Source: a virus
IMG/VR virus record: IMGVR_UViG_3300030419_004325
Coordinates: 995 to 21,273 of that record
Length of the DNA: 20,279 nucleotides
Direction: 5' to 3' (one strand)
The translations under genes and the position numbers were made by a program. The notes beneath the pieces were generated by a model. It was given only the letters and a program-made list of their open reading frames with translations. It did not search any database and was not told the DNA's origin. Below are positions 1,535 through 16,259 of this stretch, in pieces. The first letter of the stretch is position 1. The number at the start of each line of letters is the position of its first letter.

Positions 1535-4500
1535 TTAAGTGAGATTCTCAGGAGTTCCTGGAATATTAAGTCTAGGATCATTACTAGTAACATCACTACC
1601 CTGTCTCTGGATCGCAGATGGAGGTGTAGTAACTGTAGCATCGATGCTTTCCTGTAGTGTATCATATATCTGGATAGGTTGTCCAGCAGTTGCATACCAA
1701 CCAGCATACTTGATACCATTCTCATAGTAAACCGCACCGTAGTATGGTTTACCATTGTAGTATCCAGTTTGTTTGATGCCAGCCAAATCTGTTACCTGAA
1801 TAATATCCTCAGGAGGAAGTATGTCTGGTGGAACAACTACAAATTCAAACTCAGGTATAAGACGAGTCCCTAATCCTGTTGGCGTATCAATCCAAATCTG
1901 CGGAACAGATGGAACTGGTGTGAGTTGGGGTGGAGGAGTCACTATAACATCAACTACTCGTCCAAAATTATCACAAACTGGTTTAAATTTATACCCCAAA
2001 TCAGGCTCCATTATAATCTTATCCGTTGAACAATCATTATTAATACCTGGTTGCTCAACCTTCACCTTCTTGATAACCGGAACTACTGGATATTGTGGAT
2101 CATCAGGTCCAGGACCCTCATCCTCAAAACCAGTACCAGGATCATTAATTTCTACCTCAGTCACAACACCCTTTCCACCCACTTCTTTAGGGCAAGGTGG
2201 AGGAACAAGAATACCAGAGACTCCCATAGGATTTTTTGTCCAGGATTTTCCCTTATCAACGGCAACACTTACATCCTTTCTAATCTCTAGTACTACACCA
2301 GCAGGATTACTTCTAAACACATCATCATTAGGACTACCAACTTCAAGTCCTTGATGATGAGTATTGATTAATCTAATCTTAACATCATATCTACCAGGTG
2401 TTCCAATGTTAATCTTATCATAACTCTTATCACTACTTAATGTATAATTCTCATCCGCAAATAATAATTGCTCACCATTAATATATAATTCTGCTTTATT
2501 ATCTGCAGCAAAAAGAATATCATACTGACCCTTAAGAGGGAAATCAACATTCTTCCACTCTAAAACTTTCGTTCCTACATTATCAGGAGTAGGTTTATCT
2601 AAATCTGTATCAACATTAGCAGGAGAAACCCCAAACTTATTCATCACCTTACCCCATCTCTTATCCGTATAATGGAAAAGGTTGGGACCACTATAAGAAA
2701 CCTCTCCTTTCTTTTGTTTAATTATCTTTGTCTCATTTGCTGGTGGTCCAGATACTACCTCAACATAACTATCACCACCATTCTCTCCACCTTTAACATT
2801 CTTACCCTGTCCTCCTTTACCAACAACAATTTTTAATTTCCGACCTGCTTCAATTTCCTCCGTCACATAAGCATAAGCACCACCACTACCACCACTTCCC
2901 TGCCTATCTCCGTCAGTATCTTTAAATCCACTTCCACCACCACCAATACAAACTATCGTTACACTATTCTTCTGTTTAGATTCTCCCGGAACTGTTACAT
3001 TATAAACTCCTGGAGAAGTCCATTGCTGAGACTTGGAAGTAAGTCCCCACGTAATTTTTACACCACCACTTCCACCATGTCCTCCTCTACCACTAGAATT
3101 TTTTCTAACAGCACCACCACCGCCACCACCCATAGCAACTCCATCACCACCTGAAGAATATGTATTATTAGAATCTTTAGTTACTGTCTGCTCAATAGAT
3201 CCTACTTGAGTTCCTTGGAAATTAACACCAAATCCACCAGGACCACCCTTATATCTCCCACTCCCCATAGAATCTATTTGACTATGACTTAAAGTATTAA
3301 TACTATGACCACCATTTCTTAATCCAGCACCACCACCACGTCCACCATGATGCTTACCATACATGTTATCATCACCACCTGGTCCACCAGAACCACCCTT
3401 ACCTACAATAACTTTACCGCCAACTAACTGTTCACTATTATCTGTTCCTCCTTTACCACCACCAGCATGGCATACAATTCCTGTTGCCGATGGAGCAGGT
3501 GCAGTAGGAGGTGTTCTTCTCCAATCTCTAGCACTGAAAATTTTCTTACTTACATCCTTATACGTAACAAAACTATAATTTTCTACTTCAATTCTTAAAG
3601 TCTTTAACCCAGCAGTTAAGAAAAACTTAGAACTACCCCTTATTTTATTCTTTCTTCTAGAAAGATCTAACTTTAAATCATCATCAATATAATACCTTGC
3701 TATATCATCCACCTCACCTTTAAGTTGATAGTATCCATCATAAGGAACATCTATCTTCCATGTGTTAGTAAATACTTTTCCTCCATGAGCAGTTCCAGGA
3801 GTATTTAAAGGTAAGACAGGCGAAACAGCATATCGATTAAGAAACTCACTCCAACCCTTACCAGTGTGCTTATGTCTCTTAGCCATCTCAGCATCCATTC
3901 TCACTGGATACCATTGTCCTCCAGAAACTACCTTACTACCTCCACTACTCCCACTACTATTTCCACTACCATCATCTATAACTCCAGCAATATCCGCCTG
4001 ATGTCCCAATATTCCTTTACGAATAGCACTAGAAGACTTACCTGTACCTATCCAATCATCAACTTCCTTCTCACTAGCTACTCTATTCCAACGTTGTTTA
4101 TACCAGTCCTTAATATTACTACGAAGTCCACCATCAAAACTAGAAGCACCACCACTTGCACCACTACGTGCACCACCAGAAGTAGGAAATCTAGTAGTCC
4201 ACATAGGATTGTTAGGACATCTCCCCTTTGCCTTAGGAATTTCTTCTACTGGAACAGGAGGGAGGGGTGCCTTAATTGTAAAAGCAACACCCATAGGATT
4301 CTCTTGCCAAGACTTAGCAGATACTACAGTCTTAGTAGCATAAGCAACCTCAACATCAACAGCCAGAACCATAGGGTTAATACCCTTAATAGTTTCTTCT
4401 AATTTAAACTTACATTGATTACCCTTTACACTATAAAATTGACCTTCAGTTACTGTACATACAATGTCTTGCCAATCACCATCTCTCCACTCTTCCATCT

Positions 4501-7372
4501 CCAATCTTCTACCATTATCCCTTACACGTACTCTTACATTAGAACTTTGCTCACTAGTACATATCACATCATATTCTTTTCCAACCTCAACATTCTTCAT
4601 AAAGTTTTGATTTAATTGAGGACCCTTCAACTGTTTCCCTACCGAAAATAATCCAGGAATAGTAATCTTATTAGCAAAATCAGCAGCACTGGTAACTTTA
4701 AAGGAAACTTCTTTGTCCTTTACTGTCTTACCTCCTTCTTGTCTAAAACCAAACCTACCCCCTGGTATCTGTTCTAAACCAGCATCAAGTGTATAGTTTC
4801 CTTTCTTAAAGAACCTAGTGTAAGTACTGGTACCAGTAGGAAGACTCGCCTGTCCATTAATAAAACCTTCCTTCCTGATGCTTACATCTCCACCGGGACC
4901 ATGGAACCTAAGATTTACACTATCATCAACAGCAACTTTGATAATATAATTTCCATCAATCGGGAAATTAATATTCCTCCATTTGATCTCATGTGTTCCT
5001 GCATAAGGATTGGTATCTAATTCTTTAGTAGTATCAAAAGGACAAACACCAGCAGTATTTACAAACCCACCTCTACCATAGACATTAGTTCTCCATAACT
5101 GTCGGTTCGCTTTACCCATCCAGTCAACAGTATTGAAAACCTTCTGTACTTTTATTCCTGCTGCTGGTGAAGTCTTAGGTTTAGCAGGAGGTTTTAATCT
5201 TTTCTTCTCTGGTGTTACAGAATTTACTCTAAGATTAATGCTTGCATTGCGATCAAACCCACCTTGAATATCATCATCTAGTTCTATTCTTGTATCTGCA
5301 ATCCCCTTTGCAGATATACCTTCTCTCTTAAAAAGTGATGCACTATCATGTCCTGAAACAGTAGAAGAAACAATACGAGCACCAGCACCTCCAGATTGGC
5401 CGATTATTTGTATTGGATAACGACCAGCAGGAAACTTAGCAGTTCCAGTTAAAGTCTCTCTCCTTCTACCTTTAGTTCTTGTTAAAATAATATCACCACA
5501 TCTCATCTCTCTCACAGATAAACCTGATGTGCTCCACTTATCATTAGTATCCAGTAACAAAGTACATTCCGCAGTACCAGCACCACTAACTACCAATGTA
5601 AGATCACTTATACTACTCCCTTCAAACTTTGCTGTAGCAGTGGATACATCTTCATATTCAACATCAACACTATCTTTTTGAGGAGGTTCCTGTATCGTAA
5701 CATCTTTATATTGTAAGGTATTAAGAAGATCTATTCTCATCTTATGAACCTTTCCTTTCGTATCACTATCTTCCCAATCAAAATGCTTCTTAAGAATAGA
5801 AGGTTTATCTTTCCACTTAGCAATCTTTGGCATCAATTGCTGACCATCCAAATAAAATGATGCTTCATTATCACACTGAGCTTTAAAGGTATACTCACCT
5901 GGATAAGGGAACTCTTCTTCCCATTCCATAGTAAATAACATCCCTGCAAAATCACTACCTGGTGCATTAGACATAGGTACTGGTGATATTGCATGATCAT
6001 TCATAAAACTACGTGCTATATCAGTTGGCTTACCCTTCTGAGAAGATGAAACCGCACCCTGAGTTCCTGGAATGGTTAATTTATAAGTTAAATCATAAGT
6101 ACTATGACCACTCACCTTTCTTACATTGCTTGACTTAAATATACCAGTCTTAGCTTGTATCTGTAGATCGTCATTATCATTACCACTTTTAGCCAAGTCA
6201 GCAAAAATAGAAGAAGAAGTTCCTAGTCCCTTTTCTACTCCTCTAGTTCCAAAATTCTTTAAAAGAAGTCCTTGCTCAGTTCCCTTCTTTTTATATGACC
6301 CCTGAGATGTTACTTTATAATCAACATTAGGTTTTATCTGTTTAGTTATGGACCTTGGTTCTCCACCATCAGTATAATCATCTGCCTTTACTACGAAGGT
6401 ATGAGAGCCACCTACTTCAGTAAAAGTAAACTGCAATCCCTTTCCCTTTCCACCTTCAGTATAAATGTCAAATACTACGTCTTCAAAAGCACCTGGTAAC
6501 TTTGTGACAGTACCATGAGTTAATTGACTACCACCCCATGCCCAATGATATACAGGATATACAGTTCTATTAGGGTTAAAGTTTAATTTCTTTTGCCTCT
6601 TAACAAATCCTTCTTCATTATCAGAGACAACACTAAGAGGAGCTTCCTTTCTTGTAAACCACCAAGGGTCAGTTAAAGCAGCAAGATACTCTTGAAACTG
6701 TATTATCTGTCTCTTAATAGGATCCTTTTCATCATTCACATAGATTGATGGATCCCAAGGACCTAGATCTTTTCCATCAGGAGAATACCGTTGTCCATAA
6801 CCTACATCATTTTTCTTACTGTTTGCTTCACATAAATTTTTAATATCAGGTGGAAAATACTCCTCAAATTCTTCTTCAGCATCATAAACTTCTTTTACTA
6901 TAGCAGTCTGTCCCAATCCAGCTATAGCAACTACCCCACCACCTTTCTGACCCCCACCATCCTTTATCTTAACAATAGGAGGATACTTATATCCATGTCC
7001 ACCTGATATTAGATGGACACCTAATATACCACCATCCTTACCCACTACAGCATTTCCTTTAACACCTACACCACCTCCTCCAAAGAACTCTACTCTTGGA
7101 GTACCATAAGGTTTCTTTAAATTAATTCCATCACACTGATTTTCTGGTTCTGCAGGAATAAAAACATCTGCTGGTTGTAACTTATTAACCTCATTAATAT
7201 TTTTATATTCAATCCTTTTCCTATTCCTTATAATAAAGGTAGTGCCAGGATTTAATTCAGCATATCTATTAGCATCACAGACATCAACACCTTCCACATA
7301 GCCTCTATCGGTAGAAATATATCCTACCCTAATATCACTCTTTGATGGTGGCCCAAATAGATTAAATCCCAT
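1535..7372 (-). CDS. giant modular virion protein with PA14-like and glycine-rich modules
   Basis: At 1945 residues this is the largest gene here, uninterrupted over 5838 bases. The N-terminal part (residues about 95-155) is glycine-rich with the fibre-type pattern HLISGGHGYKYPPIVKIKDG. Four related modules follow at about 455-550, 757-875, 1172-1265 and 1571-1660. Each resembles a PA14/lectin-type fold: a W or F, then (F/Y)xVSP, a PGT-like turn, an aromatic strand ending in FPxxGxY, and D(D/N)xAxxYxxGxxL. Two are followed by a tag W-x-x-NPMGV (about 1020 and 1710). Residues about 1300-1540 are glycine-rich with a strand pattern GVYNVTVPG, VTIVCIGGGG, LKIVVGKGGQG, as in phage adhesin tips. 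The C-terminus has a tyrosine-rich segment near 1869 (GYYNGKPYYGAVYYENGIKY). It directly follows gp5 (11-base gap). The likely role is a large baseplate-attached fibre or carbohydrate-binding structural protein, inferred from domains and place. Confidence 0.8.
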   Translation of the reverse strand: MGFNLFGPPSKSDIRVGYISTDRGYVEGVDVCDANRYAELNPGTTFIIRNRKRIEYKNINEVNKLQPADVFIPAEPENQCDGINLKKPYGTPRVEFFGGGGVGVKGNAVVGKDGGILGVHLISGGHGYKYPPIVKIKDGGGQKGGGVVAIAGLGQTAIVKEVYDAEEEFEEYFPPDIKNLCEANSKKNDVGYGQRYSPDGKDLGPWDPSIYVNDEKDPIKRQIIQFQEYLAALTDPWWFTRKEAPLSVVSDNEEGFVKRQKKLNFNPNRTVYPVYHWAWGGSQLTHGTVTKLPGAFEDVVFDIYTEGGKGKGLQFTFTEVGGSHTFVVKADDYTDGGEPRSITKQIKPNVDYKVTSQGSYKKKGTEQGLLLKNFGTRGVEKGLGTSSSIFADLAKSGNDNDDLQIQAKTGIFKSSNVRKVSGHSTYDLTYKLTIPGTQGAVSSSQKGKPTDIARSFMNDHAISPVPMSNAPGSDFAGMLFTMEWEEEFPYPGEYTFKAQCDNEASFYLDGQQLMPKIAKWKDKPSILKKHFDWEDSDTKGKVHKMRIDLLNTLQYKDVTIQEPPQKDSVDVEYEDVSTATAKFEGSSISDLTLVVSGAGTAECTLLLDTNDKWSTSGLSVREMRCGDIILTRTKGRRRETLTGTAKFPAGRYPIQIIGQSGGAGARIVSSTVSGHDSASLFKREGISAKGIADTRIELDDDIQGGFDRNASINLRVNSVTPEKKRLKPPAKPKTSPAAGIKVQKVFNTVDWMGKANRQLWRTNVYGRGGFVNTAGVCPFDTTKELDTNPYAGTHEIKWRNINFPIDGNYIIKVAVDDSVNLRFHGPGGDVSIRKEGFINGQASLPTGTSTYTRFFKKGNYTLDAGLEQIPGGRFGFRQEGGKTVKDKEVSFKVTSAADFANKITIPGLFSVGKQLKGPQLNQNFMKNVEVGKEYDVICTSEQSSNVRVRVRDNGRRLEMEEWRDGDWQDIVCTVTEGQFYSVKGNQCKFKLEETIKGINPMVLAVDVEVAYATKTVVSAKSWQENPMGVAFTIKAPLPPVPVEEIPKAKGRCPNNPMWTTRFPTSGGARSGASGGASSFDGGLRSNIKDWYKQRWNRVASEKEVDDWIGTGKSSSAIRKGILGHQADIAGVIDDGSGNSSGSSGGSKVVSGGQWYPVRMDAEMAKRHKHTGKGWSEFLNRYAVSPVLPLNTPGTAHGGKVFTNTWKIDVPYDGYYQLKGEVDDIARYYIDDDLKLDLSRRKNKIRGSSKFFLTAGLKTLRIEVENYSFVTYKDVSKKIFSARDWRRTPPTAPAPSATGIVCHAGGGKGGTDNSEQLVGGKVIVGKGGSGGPGGDDNMYGKHHGGRGGGAGLRNGGHSINTLSHSQIDSMGSGRYKGGPGGFGVNFQGTQVGSIEQTVTKDSNNTYSSGGDGVAMGGGGGGAVRKNSSGRGGHGGSGGVKITWGLTSKSQQWTSPGVYNVTVPGESKQKNSVTIVCIGGGGSGFKDTDGDRQGSGGSGGAYAYVTEEIEAGRKLKIVVGKGGQGKNVKGGENGGDSYVEVVSGPPANETKIIKQKKGEVSYSGPNLFHYTDKRWGKVMNKFGVSPANVDTDLDKPTPDNVGTKVLEWKNVDFPLKGQYDILFAADNKAELYINGEQLLFADENYTLSSDKSYDKINIGTPGRYDVKIRLINTHHQGLEVGSPNDDVFRSNPAGVVLEIRKDVSVAVDKGKSWTKNPMGVSGILVPPPCPKEVGGKGVVTEVEINDPGTGFEDEGPGPDDPQYPVVPVIKKVKVEQPGINNDCSTDKIIMEPDLGYKFKPVCDNFGRVVDVIVTPPPQLTPVPSVPQIWIDTPTGLGTRLIPEFEFVVVPPDILPPEDIIQVTDLAGIKQTGYYNGKPYYGAVYYENGIKYAGWYATAGQPIQIYDTLQESIDATVTTPPSAIQRQGSDVTSNDPRLNIPGTPENLT

Positions 7373-11047: not shown

Positions 11048-13357
11048 TTAACTACCTTTATATAATATCTCATAAGGATCCTTACCACCCCCACCACCAG
11101 AAGTAACTAACGGAGCAGTAGCACTACCACCAGTCCCAGATATATCCTCCACTGCAGTCTTCGTAGGTGCAGGAACTGTTACTACTTCAGTTTCATTTTT
11201 ATCATAAGATGCAGTAGTAGATATAGATTCTATCACTGCCTTAGCACCACCTTGTTCATTAGCAGTCTTTAATTTATTCTCAACAGTAGATTGTGTTGCA
11301 AGAGGAGATGCTGATTCACCCTTCAGAGATTGATTCTTATCACCCAATGCATCACTTATCGATACTTCTGTCGCCTCAGATTTATCTGACTTATTCTTTT
11401 CACTCAAAGCATTACCCTTACCACCACCAGTTATCCAATTCCATGCCTTACCTGCAGCTCCTGTCACTGCTCCAGTCACATTACCCACAGTCTTCTTCAT
11501 TCCTTCTATCATTTCTTTCCTTTTTTCCTCTCGTATCCTCTCTTCTTCTGCCTTAACAGAGTCTGTTGTTATTTCTGGAGGTGGTGAGGGTGCTTTTGCT
11601 AAACCTTTAGGTGGTGTAGGTTCACCAAATACCCCTGGTAAGAATGACTTAGCAATAAGAGGTGTAAGGAAAGGTAATCCTAGAGGAGTAAGCATTGCCA
11701 GATTAGGTATGGCTAATAACTTTCCATTTTCTATATACCTACCCATGCCAGGAATAAATTTAGCAAAGAATCCCATCACCTCCTGCAATCCAGGAAGACC
11801 TTTTAGCATATTTAATATACTAAAATCATCACCAAAAGGATTCCAAATTTTAATACCAAGAACACCACCCAGTCCCACCTTCTGCATTATACCAGCAATA
11901 ATATCTCCTGGTCTAAAATCTGGGATAGGAATTGTAGGGAAGTTGTCAATAACATTAGTCACTCCAGTTTTAACAAAATCAAATACAAACTTTCCTGCCT
12001 TAAAGATACCCATAATAGTATCCCTAAGCATCTTCATTGCTGCTTTAGGATCTTTCTTAATAATTAAATGATAGAGTAAGTCACCAACAAATACACCAAT
12101 AGCCTCACCTAAAAGTGTCCCAACAATAGGAATAGGTATAAAGGTTCCAAGTAATCCACCAATAGCAGCACCGAATGTCTTAAAGAGTGCCTGTCCTAGT
12201 GGTTCTCCAGACACTAAAGAAACAATACCAATAATTAAAGGTCCAATAATAGGAACCTTACCAAAGATTTTACTAGCAGCCTTTACAAAAGTTTTGCCAA
12301 ATAATTTTAAGGCACCTCTCTTCATCAATCCACCAGCACCCTTCTTCATCAAACTACTGGCACCCTTACCAATTCCCTTAAAGAATTGTCTACCACCTCT
12401 TCCTATTAATCGTCTAGCACCAACTGATATTCCTCTACCAAGACGACTAAGACCTCTACCAGCTGCTCCTGCTAATCTCCCTGCGGCACCACGAGTTATA
12501 AAATTAACTAACTTCCATGCATTAGCAACAATAGACTTAGCAATACTAAAAGCAATCTTTATATTTCTTATAACAGCAGCAACTATTTTCTTACCTATAA
12601 ACTTCCAGACTAAGAAGGCACTAATTAAGTCCTTCACATTAGTCATAAATGTCTTAAACTTCTCAGCACCTTCTTCACCGAAGATGTTCTTCACCATACT
12701 TTCCATTCCATCAACCAGTTTATATCCCCAGTTGATAAAAGTTGCTAGCGCATTAAGAATAAATCCACCAGCATCAATAATCCAATCAGCAATCCTTCCA
12801 AGTGTAGGAAGAATCTTCTGAATAGTTGGTATAAAATCAACCAACTTCATCATTACCATACCAAAAACTAATTGTCCAACAAATCCAAAGACACTATCCA
12901 ACAATCCCTTACCAGGCATCTTGGGCATTTTAAATCCCGATACCATTCCTTTTGCTTTCTCTAACGCACCCTCTGCACCCTTTCTATCTTTCTTCTCATT
13001 TCTTTTCCTACTATTCTTTAACTGTTCTTTCTCAAGTACATAGGACCCCTTCAAAAGAGTAGCAACTTGAATAGTAGTAGTCTTTATAGATAACGCTGCT
13101 TCCTTTTCTGTTGCAAATTTACTCCCACCACCACCTCCTCCACCAGCAGAAGGAACACCAGGTGCAAGAGTTTGTTGAGGTTGAACTGTCTGTGCGGGTG
13201 CTCCAACCTGTGCCTTAGGTTGAGGCTTGCCCATCATTACTCGACCTTCTCTACCTAATAACTTTCCAGCCTTAGTCTTACCGATATTCTTTGCTCTTTC
13301 TTTAAGAGCACCCCCAATCATTCCTTTAACTAAAGAACCTCCTAGTCCTAGTGCCAT
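11048..13357 (-). CDS. tape-measure-like tail protein, second of two
   Basis: This 769-residue protein is largely helical. It starts with a basic glycine/alanine region, a Pro/Gln stretch and a heptaglycine (residues about 72-78). Residues about 84-198 contain a basic charged helix (KNSRKRNEKKDRK) then a hydrophobic one (SVFGFVGQLVFGMVMMKLVD). Residues about 285-355 are rich in Gly, Arg and Lys (GRGLSRLGRGISVGARRLIG). Residues about 357-431 are strongly hydrophobic (VPIIGPLIIGIVSLVSG; FIPIPIVGTLLGEAIGVFVG). The C-terminus is low complexity with another Gly run. Hydrophobic segments within a long helical tail protein are characteristic of tape measures, which fill the tail tube and may help DNA cross the inner membrane. 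It sits between the lysozyme-bearing protein and gp27, where T4 gp29-type function would be expected. It starts 4 bases after the preceding stop. No T4 gp29 sequence similarity is obvious. Confidence 0.65.
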   Translation of the reverse strand: MALGLGGSLVKGMIGGALKERAKNIGKTKAGKLLGREGRVMMGKPQPKAQVGAPAQTVQPQQTLAPGVPSAGGGGGGGSKFATEKEAALSIKTTTIQVATLLKGSYVLEKEQLKNSRKRNEKKDRKGAEGALEKAKGMVSGFKMPKMPGKGLLDSVFGFVGQLVFGMVMMKLVDFIPTIQKILPTLGRIADWIIDAGGFILNALATFINWGYKLVDGMESMVKNIFGEEGAEKFKTFMTNVKDLISAFLVWKFIGKKIVAAVIRNIKIAFSIAKSIVANAWKLVNFITRGAAGRLAGAAGRGLSRLGRGISVGARRLIGRGGRQFFKGIGKGASSLMKKGAGGLMKRGALKLFGKTFVKAASKIFGKVPIIGPLIIGIVSLVSGEPLGQALFKTFGAAIGGLLGTFIPIPIVGTLLGEAIGVFVGDLLYHLIIKKDPKAAMKMLRDTIMGIFKAGKFVFDFVKTGVTNVIDNFPTIPIPDFRPGDIIAGIMQKVGLGGVLGIKIWNPFGDDFSILNMLKGLPGLQEVMGFFAKFIPGMGRYIENGKLLAIPNLAMLTPLGLPFLTPLIAKSFLPGVFGEPTPPKGLAKAPSPPPEITTDSVKAEEERIREEKRKEMIEGMKKTVGNVTGAVTGAAGKAWNWITGGGKGNALSEKNKSDKSEATEVSISDALGDKNQSLKGESASPLATQSTVENKLKTANEQGGAKAVIESISTTASYDKNETEVVTVPAPTKTAVEDISGTGGSATAPLVTSGGGGGKDPYEILYKGS

Positions 13358-13361
13358 ACTC

Positions 13362-15362
13362 TTATACCATTATCCCCAACGTTCTAATCTTATAAACAGA
13401 TACCATCATTCCAGCATCAATTTCCGGTAAACTTGGAGTTACATTTTGAGGAAGAGGTGCATCTGCTCCATCTTCTTCATGTTGATGTGCCGATGCCATT
13501 GAAGTACCCTTAACAGGAGGTCCAATATTACTTACAGGAGGTGGTGCTGTAACATTTGCAGGTGTAGAACTACTTCCACCATATCTACCACCAGACTCAC
13601 CACCTTTAAGAGCACCAGCACCAGCACCGCCACCACTACCTAAGTATGAACCTTCAGGAACTCCCTTACCTTTAATCAAACTTACAATAGTAGGTGCTCT
13701 ACGTGCTACATCTCCATACCATTTACTATTCTCTAATTCTGCACCTGCCAATTCATAATTACCTGCCTTAAATGCAGCAGTAAATTTAGGAAAATCTGTG
13801 TGCCAATCAGGACCCATATTAAATGTAAGATCTATCAATGCTGCTTGCTGCTTCTCATCTGCCTTACCATATCCAGGAATCTTTTTAGCAGCATCTGCAT
13901 GCTCCTTATAATCTTGTTCAAATAATTTTTCTGCCCTTTCTTTAGTAATCGTAGCACCTTCCTGCAGTGCCTGAATATCTGGAGGAGAACCCTTATCAAT
14001 TAAGTGCCCATAACCAACCGTAAGGAATCCTTTTGAATCTTTATACGCATCCAATCTCAATCCTTCATGCTCCTTCACCATATCTTTAGCGAATTCGTTT
14101 CCTCCTCCACCTCCTCCACCACCCATCATCTCAGCAAGACCACCACCCCTCTTATCAAAATCAAATATACCACCCGTCATCCAGTCAGCAGCACCAGCAA
14201 GACCTCTCATCAATCCTTGAGGTTTCTTCTGCTCATCATCACCAGGAACAACACCACCACCTCTGAATCCCATCACTCCTTCACCACTCATAGTTGCTGA
14301 GTTAGATCCACCACCAGCAGCATTCATTCCTGCTAGAGTACCAGCACCAAACTTATTAACTGCTCCCTTACTCATCACAAACTCACCAGGAGTTAGCATA
14401 GCAGGGACTGTATCCTTATCTCCTTTACCAGGAACCTGACCACCCTTATTAAAGTTCTGACCTTCAGGTGCCTTAGGATCAGTCTGAGTGGGAGATACTT
14501 CTGGTTGACCTTGCTGACCCTTCTTTATCTGGTCCTCCATCCCCTTATTAGCATTCTCTCCTGCAACCAACAGTTCCTTTTCATTCTGCTTTGAACCACT
14601 CTTTAATTCTTTATCAATATCCTTTCCAAATCCAAAGATACTTTTAATAGCATCCTGTATCTTAACAACTCCCCAGATTACTAAGGCAGTTATCCCTGCT
14701 ATTACTCCTACAGGCCCTAACAATGGAGAAGCAAATGCAATAAGACCTGCTACTATTGCTGGCCACCAATCCTTAATAAATCTGAATATAGATGTTATCT
14801 TCTCTGTATTTCCAGGATCAGCAAACCATTCCCATAATTTTATAGCAATCCTTCCAGTAAATATAGTCGTCAGGAATCCCATAACCGTATCCCATAAACT
14901 CACAAAAGGTTTAGTTACTGCATCTGCTGCCTTCTTAATAGTACCTTTTACTCCTTCTATTGCACTCTCTTTTAAACTTCTTTTATCTTTCTCATCTTGT
15001 TTTCTTTGATTATTAGCAACCTCAGTATCTAATTTATTCTGCTTGTTTAGTGTATCTACAATACCACTCATCGTCGAAGCAATATCACCTAAGATATCCT
15101 TCAAACTTCCACCATCACCAGGTAACTTATCACCTACAGTGTCACCTGCATCCTGCTTCTGTTGTTCCTTTGTTATATTTTTTAAAAGAGTAATCTTCCT
15201 AGCATTAATTGCTATTGCTTTCTTATTTCCTCTTACAATCTGAGCAAGTTTACCAGTCTTACCTAGCCCACCAAACAAACCTCCACCAACTTTGCCCAAC
15301 TCACCACCATCCTTTCCCATCAGTTTGGACGGAGATATTTTTTTATCAGTTGTACTTGGCAT
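13362..15362 (-). CDS. tape-measure-like tail protein with embedded GH24 lysozyme
   Basis: This 666-residue protein combines tape-measure features with a T4-lysozyme-type (GH24) muramidase. A charged helical N-terminal part (NNQRKQDEKDKR, 118-128) is followed by hydrophobic segments at about 153-175 and 197-232 (GLIAFASPLLGPVGVIAG). Residues 307-330 hold the motif GGQVPGKGDKDTVPAMLTPG-EFVM, common in phage tape measures. An octaglycine near 415-422 leads into the lysozyme domain, about 424-562. It begins EHEGLRLDAYKDSKGFLTVG-YGH and aligns with T4 lysozyme so that E433, D442 and T448 correspond to catalytic E11, D20 and T26. A second Gly/Ala/Ser linker follows (about 567-600). It likely digests peptidoglycan locally during DNA entry. 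Its ATG lies inside the end of gp51 (17-base overlap). Confidence 0.82.
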   Translation of the reverse strand: MPSTTDKKISPSKLMGKDGGELGKVGGGLFGGLGKTGKLAQIVRGNKKAIAINARKITLLKNITKEQQKQDAGDTVGDKLPGDGGSLKDILGDIASTMSGIVDTLNKQNKLDTEVANNQRKQDEKDKRSLKESAIEGVKGTIKKAADAVTKPFVSLWDTVMGFLTTIFTGRIAIKLWEWFADPGNTEKITSIFRFIKDWWPAIVAGLIAFASPLLGPVGVIAGITALVIWGVVKIQDAIKSIFGFGKDIDKELKSGSKQNEKELLVAGENANKGMEDQIKKGQQGQPEVSPTQTDPKAPEGQNFNKGGQVPGKGDKDTVPAMLTPGEFVMSKGAVNKFGAGTLAGMNAAGGGSNSATMSGEGVMGFRGGGVVPGDDEQKKPQGLMRGLAGAADWMTGGIFDFDKRGGGLAEMMGGGGGGGGNEFAKDMVKEHEGLRLDAYKDSKGFLTVGYGHLIDKGSPPDIQALQEGATITKERAEKLFEQDYKEHADAAKKIPGYGKADEKQQAALIDLTFNMGPDWHTDFPKFTAAFKAGNYELAGAELENSKWYGDVARRAPTIVSLIKGKGVPEGSYLGSGGGAGAGALKGGESGGRYGGSSSTPANVTAPPPVSNIGPPVKGTSMASAHQHEEDGADAPLPQNVTPSLPEIDAGMMVSVYKIRTLGIMV

Positions 15363-15528
15363 TAGCTTGGCGTTGATTCTCTTTCATCTGTTCCTCTTCA
15401 AGATGTTGTTGAAGAAGACCCACGTAGATGTCTCGTTCCCAAGGCATCAAATTTTCAATCTCTGTTAAGCTATATTTATGGTACTGCATCAACGCAAAAT
15501 TGAGCCTGAAGTAATTCTCCAGGTTCAT
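15346..15528 (-). CDS. 51: gp51-like baseplate hub assembly catalyst / chaperone extension
   Basis: The 60-codon frame from the ATG at 15528 encodes MNLENYFRLNFALMQYHKYS and then LTEIENLMPWERDIYVGLLQ, ending in a charged helix. The core (Y-x-L-x-E-I-x-x-[LM]-PWERD-x-Y) is that of T4 gp51-type hub assembly factors and, more broadly, of the T extension of tail assembly chaperones. It would act transiently in hub or tail assembly and not be in the virion. T4 gp51 is much longer (about 249 residues), so alone this is a short version. The ATG has no Shine-Dalgarno, and the same frame is open upstream to a TGA at 15579-15577, through the end of gp26. Expression is therefore more likely by -1 frameshifting from gp26, giving a fusion of about 304 residues, than by separate initiation. 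Confidence 0.75.
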   Translation of the reverse strand: MNLENYFRLNFALMQYHKYSLTEIENLMPWERDIYVGLLQQHLEEEQMKENQRQANAKYN

Positions 15529-15539
15529 ATGTACCAGGG

Positions 15540-16259
15540 CTAGGCGAAAAAAGCCGCTAAACCCTCCAATACTACATCACTCTTCACTTTTGTCTTGGGA
15601 TTTGTTACTGAAATAGTATGAGATAACTTAGGCATCGTAGTAAAGAATGCTTCAATCTCTTTGAACTGATTGGAATTCATACCTTCAAGAAATTCATTGA
15701 CTTCTTTCTTAGTACAATCAGCAGTTGCCCATACCTCATCTTCTGTATAAATTTTATCAATGCAAGATGCAATCAATTGGAAAGACTGATCCATCTGATT
15801 CTTATCATCAAAATCAAAATTATTCTTAATAAATTCATCCAGTGAAGGATACTTCATCTCCATCATTAAAGTATCATCAAGTTTAATTTTATTAGTATGA
15901 TTCTCAGGACGTTGAACTTCAATATCATCAAGGTCAATGGTTACAGCAACCTCAGTCTTCTCATCATCAGGACAAATAATATTAACCTCAAGTTCTTCAC
16001 CAACAGACTTACCCCTAATATTAAGGAACAAGAACTCAATATCAAAGGTTGGTAAAGTTTCTATCTTAATACCCTTAGTAAGAACACAGGCTTTAAGTAC
16101 TGCTTTAATTGCTGTAGTAATCTGCTTATTATCTTCGCTCTCTAAAGCGATTACTAATAATTTTTCTTCCTTAACTAAGAACGGTCTGTATTGAACCGTT
16201 TTTCCTGTTGAAGGTAGTGTCAACTCATACGTCGGAGTCGCAATCTTTGGTAAAGGCAT
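15540..16259 (-). CDS. 26: gp26-like baseplate hub / tail assembly chaperone
   Basis: This 239-residue protein resembles T4-type gp26 (208 residues in T4). It has an N-terminal strand pair with MPLPKIATPTYELTLPSTGK and TVQYRPFLVKEEKLLVIALE, a helical SEDNKQITTAIKAVLKACV, a beta-rich middle (EELEVNIICPDDEKTEVAV), and a C-terminal helical domain (FKEIEAFFTTMPKLSHTI) ending GLAAFFA. The VKEEKLLVIALES and I-x-FLFLNIRGKSVGE segments are typical of this family in T4-like marine phages. It is expected to be needed for hub assembly, and family relations link gp26/gp51 to tail assembly chaperones that bind the tape measure. AGGAT lies about 5 bases before the ATG. It follows the gp54-like gene after 31 bases. 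Its last codons contain the slippery heptamer for gp51, so it corresponds to the G part of a G/GT pair. Confidence 0.82.
   Translation of the reverse strand: MPLPKIATPTYELTLPSTGKTVQYRPFLVKEEKLLVIALESEDNKQITTAIKAVLKACVLTKGIKIETLPTFDIEFLFLNIRGKSVGEELEVNIICPDDEKTEVAVTIDLDDIEVQRPENHTNKIKLDDTLMMEMKYPSLDEFIKNNFDFDDKNQMDQSFQLIASCIDKIYTEDEVWATADCTKKEVNEFLEGMNSNQFKEIEAFFTTMPKLSHTISVTNPKTKVKSDVVLEGLAAFFA
15546..15567 (-). promoter_or_regulatory. predicted programmed -1 ribosomal frameshift signal (gp26/gp51)
   Basis: Minus strand, read from 15567 down: GGAGGG (15567-15562), 9 bases, then T TTT TTC (15552-15546), in phase with the gp26 codons GCT TTT TTC. The gp26 stop TAG follows at 15542-15540, one codon beyond. 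A slip of one base back makes the next codon CGC, then CTA GCC CTG GTA CAT ATG, joining the gp51 frame. The product would be gp26 residues 1-238, six bridging residues (RLALVH) and the 60 gp51 codons, about 304 residues. GGAGGG is too far (33 bases) from the gp51 ATG to serve as its SD, but is placed like the SD-like stimulator of the E. coli dnaX shift. Downstream, AGCC(C)TG at 15541-15535 could pair with CAGGCT at 15508-15503; this stem is weak. Confidence 0.75.

Follow-up and report, generated by a model that had tools for sequence, protein, structure and literature searches.

A conserved signal for −1 frameshifting at the gp26–gp51 junction, a predicted tail assembly chaperone locus of a marine T4-like phage

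The adjacent genes gp26 and gp51 of a marine T4-like phage appear to form a single tail assembly chaperone locus with two readings, in which a −1 slip would give a gp26-51 fusion. We put the probability of this reading at about 0.92. The locus lies in a 20,279-nt stretch of DNA (the window), part of a 21.3-kb virus contig that is itself a fragment. The case is built on a slip signal and its phase with gp26, their conservation in relatives, coding selection in the −1 frame, the frequent absence of an independent start for gp51, and a fold match. Judged from the sequences compared, the signal at the junction is real and deeply conserved.

The 3' end of gp26, on the minus strand, reads GAT GTA GTA TTG GAG GGT TTA GCG GCT TTT TTC GCC TAG (features in Table 1). 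The first-pass annotation had described a heptamer in exact phase near the end of gp26, a GGAGGG nine bases upstream of it, the gp26 stop one codon past it, a gp51 frame open in the −1 phase from a TGA upstream, and a gp51 ATG without a Shine-Dalgarno (SD) sequence. All of these were recovered at the positions tabulated. The bases before the ATG at 15528 are CTAGCCCTGGTACAT. After the slip, the −1 frame would read FFRLALVHMNLENYF..., up to the gp51 stop at 15346. A fusion of about 304 residues had also been proposed, and this length agrees with the predicted sum of 238 gp26 residues, the six residues RLALVH and 60 gp51 residues.

Table 1. Features of the gp26–gp51 junction and its surroundings in the window.
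Feature	Position	Strand	Evidence or remark
gp26, 239 aa, proposed short tail assembly chaperone (TAC-N)	15540-16259	-	PF12322 T4_baseplate 3.7e-76; phrog_150 4.5e-81
TGA, final stop of the -1 frame	15579-15577	-	Upstream limit for the frame change
SD-like GGAGGG, proposed 5' stimulator	15567-15562	-	9 nt 5' of heptamer; codon bias and GAA-GGG linkage in relatives
Slippery heptamer T_TTT_TTC	15552-15546	-	X_XXY_YYZ phase with gp26; T_TTT_TT[C/T] in 138/139 clusters
gp26 stop TAG	15542-15540	-	One codon (GCC) 3' of heptamer
-1 frame after slip, RLALVH + gp51, C-terminal part of predicted 304-aa TAC-NC	15546-15346	-	Open frame; pN/pS in relatives
Alternative stem-loop of most relatives, loop over gp51 ATG	15522-15535	-	5/5 pairs covary in relatives; window 4/5 pairs
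gp51 as conventionally called (60 aa, ATG without SD)	15346-15528	-	phrog_634 1.5e-25
Stem-loop CCTGGAG-AATTA-CTTCAGG, proposed 3' stimulator in window copy	15505-15523	-	22 nt 3' of heptamer; 7 pairs, about -8.9 kcal/mol
Next gene, 666 aa, tape-measure candidate	13362-15362	-	PF00959 (lysozyme domain) 3.7e-17; phrog_37649 and phrog_8010 tape-measure profiles, weak

In the mechanism that we propose, most ribosomes would terminate at the gp26 TAG and release the 239-aa TAC-N, and some would slip by −1 at T_TTT_TTC and make the 304-aa fusion, TAC-NC. A single tRNA-Phe species would decode both UUU (P site) and UUC (A site), and the tRNAs in the two sites could re-pair with UUU UUU. The SD-like GAGGG about 10 nt upstream, by pairing with 16S rRNA, probably raises slippage, and RNA structure downstream probably does so too. 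As in lambda G/GT, TAC-N would then form a coat on the tape-measure protein, and tail-tube subunits would be recruited by the gp51 domain of TAC-NC.

Conservation of the heptamer was assessed in 255 loci with a readable gp26 stop, drawn from IMG/VR scans and cultured phages. It was present in phase in 252 of them, as TTTTTTC in 228 and TTTTTTT in 24 (one of the 252 being cut at a contig end). When the loci were clustered by gp26, it was retained in 138 of 139 clusters at 90% identity and in 40 of 41 at 70%, and in-phase T_TTT_TT[C/T] persisted down to about 30% gp26 protein identity. This conservation makes a chance origin of the heptamer untenable. The first-pass annotation had proposed aligning the junctions of T4-like marine phages, and each comparison that it suggested agreed with its reading; in our alignment both the heptamer and its phase proved to be conserved. 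The heptamer was also seen in phages of Synechococcus, Prochlorococcus, Pelagibacter, Sinorhizobium, Desulfovibrio, Stenotrophomonas and Aeromonas, and in Vibrio phage D490.

The codon carrying the first T of the heptamer was NNT in all 138 clusters, against background T-ending rates of 30–83%; the residue itself varied (A, S, N, D, G, H or T). The remaining Phe-Phe pairs in gp26 were mostly TTC TTT, and none was T_TTT_TTC. Across the three slip codons, no synonymous change was found in 88 neighbour pairs, and the ratio was hence not computable. The whole 20.3-kb window carried TTTTTT[CT] only three times on its coding strand.

Three of the 255 loci lacked an in-phase heptamer. One (L093) carried an indel within gp26. 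In another, the Stenotrophomonas phage record L261, a run of five T's destroyed the heptamer, which we attribute to either a sequencing error or a mutation; the near-identical record L260 differs by one T near position 1949 (T6 instead of T5). The third, Vibrio phage D510 (L087), truly lacked the heptamer. This phage and Vibrio phage K475 (L264) carry CTT TTC or CTT TTT in its place, and the TAATG that closes their gp26 overlaps a small gp51-like frame. The overlap is possibly a third way to express the pair. The D510 protein, used as a search query, returned no relatives.

Selection on the −1 frame was examined in the same 88 nearest-neighbour pairs. For the three codons immediately 5' of the gp51 ATG, pN/pS was 0.27 in the −1 frame and 1.7 and 3.1 in the other two. 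The body of gp51 gave 0.14. By these values, the codons between stop and ATG evolve as protein in the −1 frame only.

The usual start of gp51 was frequently missing. Within the first 14 codons after the slip, an ATG was absent in 46 of the 138 clusters, and in 33 there was no ATG, GTG or TTG. Where an ATG was present, an SD preceded it in just 4 of 92 clusters, so that the lack of a gp51 SD noted in the window extends to nearly all ATG-bearing clusters. In three loci (L083, L084 and L262) annotation went astray: the annotated gp51 is only 30 aa long in P-HM2 and 45 aa in HTVC008M, and in Aeromonas phage 65.2 it was missed, apparently because there is no ATG near the slip site. For S-SM1, the predicted sequence spanning the junction is ...FFRIALMHSDLK.

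These data bear on the rival in which gp51 is a separate small protein, translated from its own ATG once the gp26 stop has been passed, through re-initiation or coupling, with the T run incidental. The ATG is conserved in two-thirds of the clusters (92/138), it lies only 11 nt past the gp26 stop, the hairpin whose loop holds it in relatives (see below) could control access to it, and the two Vibrio phages have the TAATG overlap and no heptamer. On the other hand, the frame stays open back to the heptamer in the third of clusters without an ATG, 33 of which have no usual start at all; the ATG has no SD; protein-level selection extends 5' of it in the −1 frame alone; the slip codons are invariant; and in T4 both parts form one protein. 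We consider this rival improbable. Since an ATG stands at the usual gp51 start in the window copy, some free gp51 could also arise by re-initiation, in addition to the fusion.

The SD-like site upstream was analysed in the 122 clusters with Glu-Gly at the corresponding residues. The Glu codon was GAG in 87 of these (71%), compared with a background of 30%, and GGG was enriched. The two choices were linked: GGG was the partner of GAA in 16 of 35 clusters and of GAG in 7 of 87 (p = 6e-6, an optimistic value, the sequences being related). Elsewhere in gp26, Glu-Gly was encoded with GAA in 42 of 54 cases. Linked synonymous codon choice apparently keeps a purine-rich, SD-like stretch about 10 nt 5' of the heptamer. 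Among the first 80 loci GAA was followed by GGG without exception, but the larger set broke this rule and left only a statistical bias.

Downstream structure was studied by covariation in the 78 closest sequences (alignment A3). The first stem (columns 33–37/42–46), with the gp51 ATG in its loop, showed changes on both sides in all five pairs. There were 49 double-changed cells against 11 expected in shuffles (0 of 500 shuffles), and the signal collapsed when the stem was slid. The stem was the best of 765 placements, and RNAalifold predicted it unaided. In the window copy it has one A.A mismatch. The second stem (columns 45–51/57–63), the form carried by the window, also covaried. The stabilities of the two were anti-correlated (Spearman −0.41, p 2e-4). 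A single universal hairpin, which had been expected, did not emerge: close relatives use one of the two alternative stems, the structure of the S-SM1-like group lies elsewhere, and in distant groups structure is only weak.

When the region was compared with synonymous-codon shuffles, the 78 close relatives gave a mean z of −2.62, with 71% individually at p <= 0.05, and the window gave −3.2. A control region of gp26 in the close-relative group gave −0.16. The z values of the region in the other groups were −1.0 and −0.94.

Stimulators usually lie 5–9 nt from the slip site. The hairpins here begin 10 and 22 nt past the heptamer, and their position varies between lineages. Since this spacing is longer than usual, a stimulating role is suggested with caution, and hiding the gp51 ATG is an alternative role. 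The gp51 AUG in the loop means that the hairpin could both stimulate slippage and silence separate initiation of gp51. Tentatively, and at somewhat less than even odds, the shift site of marine T4-like phages would be a complete dnaX-like cassette, with an SD-like element kept by linked synonymous codons and with alternative downstream hairpins that substitute for one another across lineages, of which one would serve this double role. We know of no description of stimulators, whether SD-like element or downstream structure, for the gp26–gp51 locus.

Slippage of RNA polymerase on the T run would give a mixed mRNA population and join the frames into the same fusion, and a homopolymer of 6–8 T's might seem suited to it. 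Runs of this length are short for transcriptional slippage, however, and the invariant codon phase is not something that a polymerase requires. The SD-like element and the downstream structure also fit ribosomes instead, and we regard polymerase slippage as very improbable. A sequencing or assembly error splitting one continuous gene, though homopolymer indels are common and L261 and L260 do differ by one T, is refuted by the recurrence of this frame break in hundreds of independently assembled sequences, among them those of cultured phages.

The identity of the products was approached through profiles and structure. The 60-aa gp51 belongs to phrog_634 and also matches the final 40 positions of the phrog_150 profile. 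For gp26, an AlphaFold2 model reached a mean pLDDT of 87. Its residues 1–86 matched the HK97 tail assembly chaperone 2ob9 with Z 7.8 and rmsd 4.1 over 84 aligned residues. Further matches of this N-terminal domain were 3fgx (Z 7.7), YqbN 3klu (7.3) and 5ir0 (5.0), followed by the next at 3.8; 3fgx and 3klu are presumably chaperone relatives as well. Foldseek alone gave weak E-values for gp26, yet placed 2ob9 near the top. The model argues with moderate strength for a chaperone fold in gp26, and a Z just under 8 could possibly reflect a shared common arrangement alone. Because the N-terminal domain matches the HK97 chaperone best, we interpret gp26 and gp26-51 as the short and long tail assembly chaperones. 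The fold match, together with homology to T4 gp26 and gp51, lends support to the chaperone reading of the first-pass annotation.

T4 itself expresses the two parts differently. T4 gp26 and T4 gp51 each match the full length of PF12322, and T4 gp51 further matches phrog_634 as well as phrog_150, the latter to its end. By these matches, the counterpart of the small gp51 is the C-terminal part of T4 gp51, and that of the predicted fusion is T4 gp51 as a whole. T4 gp51 is thus a gp26-like protein that closes with the domain seen in the small gp51. In T4 a short gene 26 and a long gene 51, separate and divergent, stand in place of one N-terminal gene with a frameshift. For a split arrangement of the T4 kind, the window gp51 has only 60 aa and no gp26-like part (the contig being a fragment), and tblastn gave a single gp26 place in each of 712 phage records. 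Taking the pair here as one frameshifted locus supports the view that T4 is the exception, two genes having replaced a frameshift.

Frameshifting is reportedly conserved in several T4-like groups, and T4 is said to use separate genes 26 and 51. A 2016 review held lambda-type G/GT frameshifting to be widespread in long-tailed phages, 'except T4' (PMC5009743). Vladimirov, Gautam and Davidson (2022; doi 10.1016/j.virol.2021.11.003), as cited in PMC10885494 and PMC12846349, identified the chaperone genes of T4-like phages. The latter paper cites them for poly-T slip signals in T4-like TAC-N genes, and the former for T4-like phages that have a short and a long gene and no frameshifting. The first-pass annotation knew of no description of such a frameshift for T4-like marine phages; the 2022 study, according to these papers, covers T4-like phages. 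The frameshift proposal is very probably correct and not new, a T4-like chaperone frameshift having been reported, on the same account, in 2022. As far as the citing papers tell, those groups have the same gene pair, function and poly-T slip sites as here, with no essential difference. Full-text literature searches found no other description of a 26-51 frameshift. Our comparison of sequences adds how widely the signal is conserved, that a third of clusters have lost the gp51 start, and that the site has apparent stimulators. The locus is a well-supported new example, not a discovery, of a marine T4-like phage that very probably makes two chaperone versions from one message.

In lambda, a low-level −1 frameshift at the end of TAC-N adds a C-terminal domain (PMC5009743), and the extension proposed here is of the same kind. 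The likeness does not extend to every element, as the slip site here is T_TTT_TTC, an SD-like element and hairpins are suggested, and the fold match is to the HK97 chaperone. The lambda slip site is G_GGG_GGA. Escherichia coli dnaX resembles the present site in its upstream SD-like element, a homopolymeric heptamer read by one tRNA, and a downstream stem-loop. It differs in that its frameshift gives a shorter product and ours a longer one, and in that the stem-loop lies farther away here.

In cyanophages and other marine T4-like phages, gp26 and gp51 are still labelled 'baseplate hub' and 'hub assembly catalyst', and gp51 is often cut short or overlooked because annotators search for an ATG. 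Hundreds of records would be corrected if the pair were read as a single frameshifted tail assembly chaperone. The conserved slip site and its apparent stimulators would also make a well-defined system for UUU-UUC frameshifting outside enterobacteria.

The statement that gp26–gp51 precedes the tape-measure gene is plausible for the window. The product of the next gene showed no similarity to the annotated tape measure of HTVC008M. This gene and the following one (11048–13357, minus strand) have a stretch of about 107 residues in common (BLASTP E 6e-7). Either of the two large genes could be the tape measure, and they may be partial paralogues. Downstream of a gp5-like hub gene, a 1945-aa protein (1535–7372, minus strand) contains repeated glycine-rich, similar-looking segments.
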